From the NCBI RefSeq assembly GCF_000702885.1, contig NZ_JNKO01000019.1, positions 1 through 58,249 of the forward strand: a stretch of 58,249 nt of DNA. The letters run 5' to 3'. The notes under the pieces are model-generated. The model ran no database searches. It saw nothing but the letters and a program-made list of their open reading frames with translations, and was not told the DNA's origin. The stretch's first letter is position 1, and each line of letters begins with the position of its first letter. The position numbers and the translations under genes were made by a program. Positions 7,900 through 8,964 of the stretch are shown one piece after another. This DNA comes from Oribacterium sp. P6A1. Lineage in GTDB: Bacteria > Bacillota > Clostridia > Lachnospirales > Lachnospiraceae.

Positions 7900-7991
7900 A
7901 GTAGGGAAAATACGCCCTACTCGATTCCACGTTGGCCTTCACTGTGCTATTGTACAAAGCACAACGCACGCGTGAAGGCCTTATTGCGAAT
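7900..7991 (-). repeat. Palindromic intergenic repeat, copy 1
   Basis: Contains AGTAGGG (7900-7906) paired with CCCTACT (7915-7921), then CGATTCCACG. A long inner hairpin follows: GGCCTTCAC at 7934-7942 with GTGAAGGCC at 7972-7980, and TGTGCT/AGCACA nested inside. It ends with GCCTTATTGCGAATAAAAA. The outer parts closely match 8578-8640. In leftward transcription it follows directly after the CAP-gene terminator. Confidence 0.65.
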
Positions 7992-8026
7992 AAAAAAAGC
8001 TTTACCCTTTTCAGAGGTAAAGCTTT
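7992..8026 (-). terminator. Terminator of the CAP-domain gene
   Basis: An 11-bp stem AAAGCTTTACC / GGTAAAGCTTT, with a T run on the minus strand (As at 7992-7998), 22 bp beyond the stop codon. Confidence 0.85.
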
Positions 8027-8047: not shown

Positions 8048-8479
8048 TCAGATTCCGAACTCCTGTGCCCAATATGTCTTTCCATCCTTAGTTGTTGTTG
8101 ATATAGCACATGTATTGTAGTTTGCGCTTAAGATGTTTGCTCTGTGTGAAGGAGAAGCCATCCATGCATCAACAACTTCATCAGCTGAATTATATCCCTT
8201 GGCAAGATTCTCGCCCCAGACATTATTTGCATCTACTGTATAGAAATCAGATCCATCCAGTCTCTGATGTGAGAACTTCTGTGTGATCTCACCAACTCTT
8301 ACTGTTGATGCGCCTTCAAGAGATGCGCTGTACTTAACTTCTGAAAGTCCGTTTGCCAATCTTATCTGATTAACCTTTGCAAGTGCCTCAGCTTCTAAAT
8401 TTGTCTGTGCAAAAGCTGAAACTGACATCATAACTACTAAACTTATAACTGCAACTATTGATCTAACGAGGTTCTTCAT
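8048..8479 (-). CDS. Secreted CAP/SCP-domain protein
   Basis: 143 residues. A signal peptide covers about residues 1-24 (LVRSIVAVISLVVMMSVSAFA, cleavage after AFA). One compact CAP domain follows, starting EALAKVNQIRLANGLSEV, with SHQRLDG, VWGENLAKGY, VVDAWMASPSHRANIL and YWAQEFG. These are the usual CAP signature His, Glu and Pro-Ser-His-Arg positions of YkwD-like bacterial proteins. The family is extracellular; its biochemical role in bacteria is mostly unknown. An AAGGAT site precedes the ATG. The gene sits directly behind a c-di-GMP-I riboswitch, with a second copy farther upstream, so its expression is very likely tied to c-di-GMP level and hence to a motile/sessile decision. Confidence 0.9.
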   Translation of the reverse strand: MKNLVRSIVAVISLVVMMSVSAFAQTNLEAEALAKVNQIRLANGLSEVKYSASLEGASTVRVGEITQKFSHQRLDGSDFYTVDANNVWGENLAKGYNSADEVVDAWMASPSHRANILSANYNTCAISTTTKDGKTYWAQEFGI

Positions 8480-8498
8480 ATTTTTTATCCTTTCAAGT

Positions 8499-8557
8499 GC
8501 AACTGGCTGACCTTTCGGCCCCTATAGCTTTGCGTCACCGGATTTCTCCGGGTTTGC
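8499..8557 (-). promoter_or_regulatory. c-di-GMP-I (GEMM-I) riboswitch, gene-proximal copy
   Basis: On the minus strand the aptamer shows GCAAACC, a CCGGA-GAAA-TCCGG hairpin with a GAAA tetraloop, the invariant GACGCAAAGC, a GGCC-GAAA-GGTC hairpin and a closing GCCAGTTGC. This is the GEMM-I consensus layout. It ends 19 nt before the CAP start codon with no terminator between, so control is probably translational. It differs from the distal copy at one of 59 positions. Confidence 0.9.
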
Positions 8558-8577
8558 TATTTAAATGAATCAGATCA

Positions 8578-8640
8578 AGTAGGGAAAAGCGTCCTACTCG
8601 CTTCCGCGATCGCTTTAAAGCCTTATCGCGAAAATAAAAA
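8578..8640 (-). repeat. Palindromic intergenic repeat, copy 2
   Basis: AGTAGG (8578-8583) pairs with CCTACT (8593-8598), and CGCGAT (8605-8610) pairs with ATCGCG (8625-8630). The flanks CGCTTCCGCG and GCCTTATCGCGAAAATAAAAA match copy 1 at 7900-7991, but the inner loop is shorter. It sits between the two riboswitches, directly after a terminator in the direction of transcription. Confidence 0.65.
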
Positions 8641-8667
8641 TGGCACCGGGATCTTTTCCCGTTGCCA
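8631..8667 (-). terminator. Terminator between the tandem riboswitches
   Basis: Minus-strand stem TGGCAACGGGA / TCCCGGTGCCA (one mismatch), then TTTTTATTTT. The 5' arm begins with AACTGGC, complementary to GCCAGTT at the 3' end of the distal aptamer, so aptamer folding and terminator formation can be coupled. Confidence 0.85.
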
Positions 8668-8740
8668 GTTAACCTAGAACCTTCTTTGAATTAGTCTTGA
8701 TTCGAGAACTAACCTTCGGAGCATCTGCTCCATGAAGATT

Positions 8741-8799
8741 GCAACTGGCTGACCTTTCGGCCCCTATAGCTTTGCGTCGCCGGATTTCTCCGGGTTTGC
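8741..8799 (-). promoter_or_regulatory. c-di-GMP-I (GEMM-I) riboswitch, distal copy
   Basis: Same aptamer as at 8499-8557 with one substitution (C for T in the residue after the first hairpin). It is preceded by a hairpin (ATGTGATC/GATCACAT, 8803-8825) and followed 74 nt later by an intrinsic terminator. It looks like a transcriptional switch: ligand-bound aptamer hides GCCAGTT and lets the terminator form, an inferred OFF switch. Confidence 0.88.
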
Positions 8800-8883
8800 C
8801 GAATGTGATCTAGGTTGGATCACATCCTAAAGAGAAATGAACTTCTGTGTTCTTTTTATTCTCACTTCCTCTTTACATTTTCT

Positions 8884-8911
8884 ATTTTACCATTTATTTT
8901 TTAAATTGCAA
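8884..8911 (-). promoter_or_regulatory. Promoter of the riboswitch-CAP unit
   Basis: Minus-strand TTGCAA, 16-bp spacer, TAAAAT. It lies between the MATE terminator and the distal riboswitch and gives a leader of roughly 400 nt. Confidence 0.6.
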
Positions 8912-8914
8912 GCG

Positions 8915-8958
8915 AAAAATTAAAATTCGCAAATTAAAATTCGGATTTAATTTGCGAA
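8915..8958 (-). terminator. MATE gene terminator
   Basis: A perfect 13-bp stem TTCGCAAATTAAA / TTTAATTTGCGAA, followed on the minus strand by TTTTAATTTTT, immediately after the MATE stop codon. Confidence 0.85.
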
Positions 8959-8964
8959 CTGCTT

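Follow-up and report, generated by a model that had tools for sequence, protein, structure and literature searches.

On the minus strand of a 58,249-nt stretch of the Oribacterium sp. P6A1 genome (contig NZ_JNKO01000019.1), which we refer to in full as the window, two c-di-GMP-I (GEMM-I) riboswitch aptamers stand in series 5' of a gene for a secreted CAP-domain protein (Table 1). Read in the direction of transcription, a promoter-like site is followed by a leader hairpin, the P0 hairpin, the distal aptamer, a linker, the sequence CTAGGTT-AACTGGC and a terminator; then come an insert, the proximal aptamer, the SD sequence, the ATG, the CAP open reading frame and the CAP terminator. The predicted protein scores 57.6 bits against the CAP profile PF00188 (cut-off 21.1), and its gene has relatives in Lachnospiraceae bacterium JC7 (96%), Oribacterium sp. 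C9 (75%) and the uncultured RUG117 (63%).

Table 1. Features of the twin-aptamer locus, in the order of transcription; positions are those of the window.
Feature	Position	Strand	Evidence
Promoter, sigma-70-like, TTGCAA-N16-TAAAAT, with TG before the -10	8884..8911	-	consensus scan, 9/12 matches
5' leader hairpin UAAAGAG..CUCUUUA	8827..8876	-	by eye; arms located
P0 hairpin, directly 5' of the distal aptamer	8801..8827	-	folds in 16/16 distal units, stem letters vary
Distal c-di-GMP-I aptamer	8737..8810	-	RF01051, 49.1 bits, E 1.3e-6
Position 20 (Vc2 numbering) of the distal aptamer, G	8800	-	
GCCAGTT, 3' strand of the distal aptamer and antiterminator arm	8743..8749	-	pairing comparison, folding
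CTAGGTT-AACTGGC, possible P0-loop partner, then antiterminator arm	8664..8677	-	pairing comparison, folding
Intrinsic terminator, stem 8667-8641, T-rich tail to 8631	8631..8667	-	folding, -16.0 kcal/mol
Hairpin insert, lineage-specific, from terminator to proximal aptamer	8570..8630 (about)	-	absent from the other genomes' loci compared
Proximal c-di-GMP-I aptamer	8495..8568	-	RF01051, 51.3 bits, E 3.7e-7
Position 20 of the proximal aptamer, A	8558	-	
TTGAAAGGA, SD and possible 3' P1 strand; partner TTCATTTAA at 8569-8561	8488..8496	-	
CAP-domain protein, 143 aa, signal-peptide-like N-terminus (by eye)	8048..8479	-	PF00188, E 2.8e-15
Terminator 3' of the CAP gene, single-gene transcript	7996..8026	-	consensus scan

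The promoter-like site is weak taken alone, as the consensus scan found four such sites where shuffled sequences gave 3.7. Relatives carry a similar -35/-10 arrangement at the same place, as judged by eye (TTGACA..TATAAT in G001). Since the scan revealed no promoter-like site on the minus strand between the two aptamers, one promoter probably drives both. Several repeats accompany the locus. An AT-rich long inverted repeat (8924-8960) lies between the promoter and an upstream MATE-family gene, of which it is perhaps the terminator; a near copy occupies the same place in a second tandem locus of this genome (C7, described below), where the upstream gene is a different one. The region 3' of the CAP terminator (7900-8000, minus strand) contains an intergenic palindromic repeat some 100 bp long, which has 12 matches in this genome, itself included and some of them partial. 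The smaller insert that separates the distal terminator from the proximal aptamer shares a motif with this dispersed repeat; in the C7 locus, another hairpin insert occupies the equivalent spot.

In a covariance search, both copies exceed the gathering score of RF01051, the c-di-GMP-I/GEMM-I model (35 bits), in line with the first-pass annotation, which had proposed two such aptamers in series from the sequence of the window. The twin-aptamer observation is real: these scores exclude chance, together with the 13 complete pairs that 11 other genomes of the genus add. The two copies form a direct repeat of 60 nt with 98% identity (one mismatch) and a spacing of 242. That the cores differ at one base, as had been stated, is correct for this block of 59 or 60 nt, but not for the base that adjoins it. 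The 59-nt core as first delimited starts one base 3' of position 20, the base 5' of the first P2 pair, and it is here that the distal aptamer has G and the proximal one A. The numbering was checked against two sources: in the accessible text of PMC6274999, J1/2 ends immediately before P2 and A41 follows P2, and in that of PMC9262584, G11 of the aptamer Cd1 is the equivalent of Vc2 G20 and acts as a selectivity factor, not as a hard filter.

The distal aptamer is followed by an intrinsic terminator, as the first-pass annotation had it. This terminator is absent from the consensus terminator scan, and its stem has an internal mismatch; the hairpin nevertheless folds in all 16 distal units, with varying letters in its apex and upper stem. 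The sequence AACTGGC (8670-8664), whose 3' part overlaps the 5' arm of the terminator, can instead pair with GCCAGTT of the aptamer. Over 11 aligned loci, this helix is paired in 100% of the cells, with G-U changes only. In transcripts that end before the terminator, its mean probability is 0.80-0.98 at all 11 loci tested out of the 15 pairs (four near-identical ones were left out), which bears out the mutually exclusive design that had been suggested. Once the terminator is made, the antiterminator probability ranges from 0.01 to 0.94 over the 11 loci and is low in most of them; at equilibrium in the full-length transcript it is 0.94 in the window, 0.83 in G002 and 0.64 in G001. Because the antiterminator dominates the full-length equilibrium in the window, termination there would need kinetics or ligand. 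With an intrinsic terminator and an exclusive antiterminator, the first unit has what defines the first half of a bi-mechanism tandem.

A further interaction may involve the loop of the P0 hairpin, AACCTAG (8816-8810), which can pair with CTAGGTT (8677-8671), the seven nucleotides just before AACTGGC. In a hand-anchored comparison, compensatory changes are seen in G008 and in G001/G002, beside broken cells. On a MAFFT alignment, in which G001/G002 are misplaced, the pairing does not rise above that of shuffles, and the complementarity within single sequences is not significant. We regard this pairing as suggestive, and as a lead.

The proximal unit is built differently. Its last conserved base (8499) and the ATG (8479) are separated by 19 nt, and no terminator intervenes, both as originally described. 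The SD sequence AAAGGA (8493-8488) follows the last conserved base after 5 nt, and 15 nt separate the aptamer match from the ATG; with this spacing and no T-run, the platform is most naturally read as one that governs ribosome access. The duplex between P1 and SD is weak in the window (-1.9 kcal/mol in isolation), where the free fold leaves the SD bases 0.45-0.83 unpaired. The relatives vary in this respect. In C7 and G004a, most of the SD is predicted to be buried already without ligand, and G001/G002 possess differently built proximal platforms, in which the SD lies in a hairpin further downstream with five of its six bases at most 0.12 unpaired and one bulged. We infer a translational step for the proximal unit.

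To what extent this arrangement is conserved can be seen in the genus, where GEMM-I matches above the cut-off occur in 13 of 17 genomes. Complete pairs number 15 and are distributed over 12 of the 17 genomes, two of them in the window's own. As a layout, the proposed succession of transcriptional and translational control is well supported and kept in these 12 genomes; its second step is the inferred part, with an SD pairing that is weak in the window. The gene 3' of the pair encodes a CAP protein in 13 of the 15 cases, lies past the contig end in one (G012c) and encodes a different secreted protein, the HELGH protein, in the second tandem copy of this genome (C7). The CAP protein, which had been named as the sole target, is thus the sole target of its transcript, but not of the system in this genome.

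The HELGH protein (200 aa; L005 3702-4301, minus strand), named here for its HELGH motif, is unrelated to CAP. The leader and platform of C7 are nevertheless of the same kind as at the CAP locus, and the signal peptide is nearly the same, so that it looks as if the regulatory cassette and the signal peptide had been reused together. The HELGH protein has no Pfam match above the cut-off (best M78, E 0.018), none in NCBIfam and none among PDB chains at E 0.01, with only unrelated chains up to E 10. A search of 299 genomes of the family, two of them from the genus, returned a strong match only in this genome, plus a weak one.

Some loci of the genus have a single aptamer. G009 has one, and the one in G004c has the 5' flank of a distal aptamer (leader) and the 3' flank of a proximal one (SD-side platform), so that it looks like a recombinant between the two. 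Both loci keep the SD-side platform, and no terminator is seen by eye. The single matches G010a, G012a and G012b are so close to a contig end (10 to 108 nt) that their partners cannot be seen. Three genomes (G004, G010 and G012) have three GEMM-I loci each, with 2, 2 and 1 complete pairs, respectively, several of the loci being cut by contig ends. In the four genomes free of GEMM-I, two of which are less than 90% complete, the CAP match is lacking (G007) or weaker (36 to 43% identity); the riboswitch-bearing genomes also have other CAP genes, with at most 55% identity. The exact pattern of the distal platform found no match in wider genome contigs, a set from which records near this genome may have been left out.

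In all 15 pairs, the two aptamers differ at position 20. Thirteen pairs have G in the distal and A in the proximal aptamer, two (G001 and G002) have the reverse, and none has identical bases; all 30 aptamers carry G or A, never C or T. What appears to be new is that, throughout the complete pairs found in the genus, a G20 aptamer is joined to an A20 aptamer. It also means that the claim of control by the same ligand is unproven and not supported as stated, and that a simple steeper response is not established. As the pairs share descent and show only two configurations (G/A and A/G), the 15 mixed pairs correspond to far fewer independent events.

Two simpler descriptions of position 20 were considered and rejected. 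It is not the sole base that always differs within pairs: position 17 likewise differs in all 15, and position 20 borders a 5' flank that differs as well. Nor is A20 tied to the SD platform, because in G001/G002 it is the transcriptional aptamer that carries it. We also compared the aptamers of each pair by partner-shuffling over ten loci, one per genome, with the five other pairs omitted as second copies or near-duplicates. Same-locus partners are closer to each other than shuffled ones (5.3 vs 8.2 differences, position 20 excluded; P 0.00025). Strong homogenisation within loci is not borne out: a distal aptamer is nearer to its own proximal partner than to the distal aptamer of another genome in 2 of 15 cases, plus one tie. 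A position-20 difference kept in the face of homogenisation would be the more telling, and the homogenisation is only partial.

Beyond the genus, GEMM-I matches occur in 112 of the 299 family genomes drawn (two of these from the genus). In the 53 genomes outside the genus with at least two matches, clusters with a spacing of less than 400 nt were sought, which yielded 11 tandem clusters; seven are G/G at position 20 and four are mixed (A/G, C/G, G/A/A and G/A). Among 55 single aptamers of the family, which are not a random sample, A20 was read in nine (5 of 29 chosen for mid or low scores, and 4 of the 26 top-scoring). CAP-domain proteins follow 5 of the 11 clusters; the downstream proteins of 10 clusters were scanned (the exception being L094), and the locus end truncates several of these proteins. 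Of the 55 single aptamers, one has a CAP protein within a distance of 1.3 kb, some of these loci ending early (Fisher P 2.8e-4, uncorrected for relatedness). The link between tandem GEMM-I aptamers and CAP proteins may thus extend across the family; the five clusters in question (L084, L085, L087, L088 and L091) belong to four other genera. Four further clusters (L090, L092, L093 and L094) consist of abutting aptamers, which are separated by 6 nt or overlap at their model ends and leave no room for a platform. They include one triplet (G/A/A at position 20) and precede long low-complexity proteins, for which the three scanned gave no Pfam match.

The genome was also surveyed for enzymes that could supply a ligand. 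It has 42 GGDEF matches, or about 40 domains after two split ones are joined, and c-di-GMP is very likely available in this organism. Hypr cGAMP synthases carry Ser at the D-to-S position of the GGDEF domain (PMC6456294), and this residue is found in none of the 33 domains, out of about 40, that were read here (D in 28, N in 4, T in 1; seven were unreadable by motif). SMODS cyclases were likewise not found in this genome; across the genus, 1 of 17 genomes (G004) has one. Neither of the two kinds of cGAMP synthase sought was therefore found in this genome, and a supply of cGAMP is not indicated.

We propose that the locus is a two-stage, or bi-mechanism, OFF switch composed of two GEMM-I riboswitches with differing pockets, which most likely respond to two thresholds of c-di-GMP; we would put the probability of this reading at roughly 0.57. 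Ligand bound to the distal aptamer would lock GCCAGTT inside the aptamer and leave AACTGGC free. The terminator would then form and transcription would stop, which would make the ligand-bound distal unit an OFF state. Messenger RNAs that escape would carry the proximal aptamer, and its ligand-stabilised base would enclose or crowd the SD and block translation, so that at high signal the CAP protein would be shut off twice. The G20 and A20 pockets would most likely set two c-di-GMP thresholds and thereby widen or grade the response, and A20 may also admit 3',3'-cGAMP. For comparison, the class I switches of C. difficile are described as OFF switches whose thresholds differ (PMC6200980). Two thresholds for one ligand are favoured over a two-ligand gate, since a supply of c-di-GMP is very likely and one of cGAMP is not indicated. 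It counts against a two-stage switch that G009 and G004c manage with one aptamer.

The pair might instead be a plain pseudo-cooperative doublet, in which both aptamers bind c-di-GMP alike, A20 is tolerated and the response becomes steeper. Exchange of the equivalent base in Cd1 for A or C has no large stabilising or destabilising effect according to the accessible text of PMC9262584, nine of the 55 single family aptamers have A20 as well, and position 20 adjoins a flank that differs anyway. Set against this are the consistent mixing in 15 of 15 pairs, the swapped order in one clade, the restriction to the letters G and A, and the 4 of 11 tandem clusters elsewhere in the family that are likewise mixed, which together make a plain doublet a rather doubtful explanation.

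We judge it less probable again that the locus works as a two-input NOR gate, in which the G20 aptamer responds to c-di-GMP and the A20 aptamer to 3',3'-cGAMP, and either ligand silences the gene, at the level of transcription or of translation. This idea draws on the binding behaviour of such aptamers: in in-line probing, a natural GEMM-I aptamer that carries A here was a better binder of c-AMP-GMP than its G homologues (PMC9481103), and the G20A mutant binds cGAMP (PMC6274999 and PMC7288161, as far as their accessible text goes). In the window, the A20 hallmark of the cGAMP variants is present in the proximal aptamer only and G20 in the distal only, and each of the 15 pairs combines one of either kind. 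What speaks against the gate is the survey of synthases, with Ser at the Hypr position in none of the 33 GGDEF domains read (of about 40), and with a SMODS cyclase in 1 of 17 genus genomes and not in this one. Its fullest form, a genus-wide RNA NOR gate that joins c-di-GMP and 3',3'-cGAMP in one riboswitch class, spans transcription and translation and has exchanged its pocket roles between clades, is similarly unlikely. Finally, we consider it very improbable that only the distal switch works and the proximal aptamer is left over from a duplication, as the weak P1-SD duplex and the partly free SD in the unliganded fold of the window might suggest, because the proximal aptamer outscores the distal one (51.3 vs 49.1 bits), is kept in all 15 pairs, and the readable single-aptamer loci G009 and G004c keep precisely the SD-side platform, with no terminator by eye.

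The two-stage switch with two pockets can be compared to several known systems. Tandem c-di-GMP-I riboswitches, with 347 doublets and 12 triplets, outnumber those of any other class in the survey of PMC9481103, where they are interpreted as same-ligand arrangements whose two copies serve to sharpen the response. Likewise, the tandem c-di-GMP switches in PMC12452182 are taken to sense identical ligands, and the triple tandem Bc3-5 of B. thuringiensis is described as three elements that switch transcription ON (PMC4759541). The locus shares with these tandems (PMC9481103, PMC4759541) the series of at least two complete GEMM-I aptamers before one gene. It differs from them, as they are treated in the accessible text, in that its two platforms are of different kinds (terminator and SD) and position 20 differs within each pair. 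The proposed division of labour is that of the SAM-II/SAM-V bi-mechanism tandem (PMC9481103), in which the first unit terminates and the second controls ribosome access; there, however, two aptamer classes are joined, whereas here there is one class with a pocket difference. As far as the accessible text of the survey goes, platforms were not evaluated for all tandems, so that c-di-GMP-I bi-mechanism cases may sit unnoticed in its set; its Table 2, as shown, contains no c-di-GMP-I/c-AMP-GMP pair.

At the level of the single aptamer, A at position 20 is shared with the cGAMP-sensing GEMM-I variants, namely GEMM-Ib of Geobacter and cluster 3 of D. acetoxidans (PMC9481103), but unlike what those variants would call for, no Hypr residue occurs in the GGDEF domains read in this genome. 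In the D. acetoxidans cluster, moreover, the partner is an AdoCbl switch, whereas here it is a G20 GEMM-I aptamer. The distal unit resembles Cd1 of C. difficile, which is described without P1, and the proximal unit resembles Vc2 of V. cholerae, a translational OFF switch that acts via P1 (both PMC9262584); here, both modes would be combined on one mRNA. Among the matches listed in our literature search, which came mostly from outside the subscription literature and are no proof of absence, none dealt with mixed position-20 GEMM-I pairs by its title or the start of its abstract, and none had c-di-GMP riboswitches with CAP proteins or in Oribacterium as its subject. The ingredients are each known, and it is their combination that was not found in the literature searched.

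A genus in which all complete pairs found combine a G20 with an A20 aptamer offers a natural test of whether tandem riboswitches are kept for steepness or for separate set-points or ligands. Ready comparisons for this purpose are provided by the one-class bi-mechanism layout, by its single-aptamer versions (G009 and G004c) and by the clade with swapped pockets. For the CAP group, which is poorly understood, the link to tandem GEMM-I aptamers that recurs in the family points to a surface function under the control of c-di-GMP.
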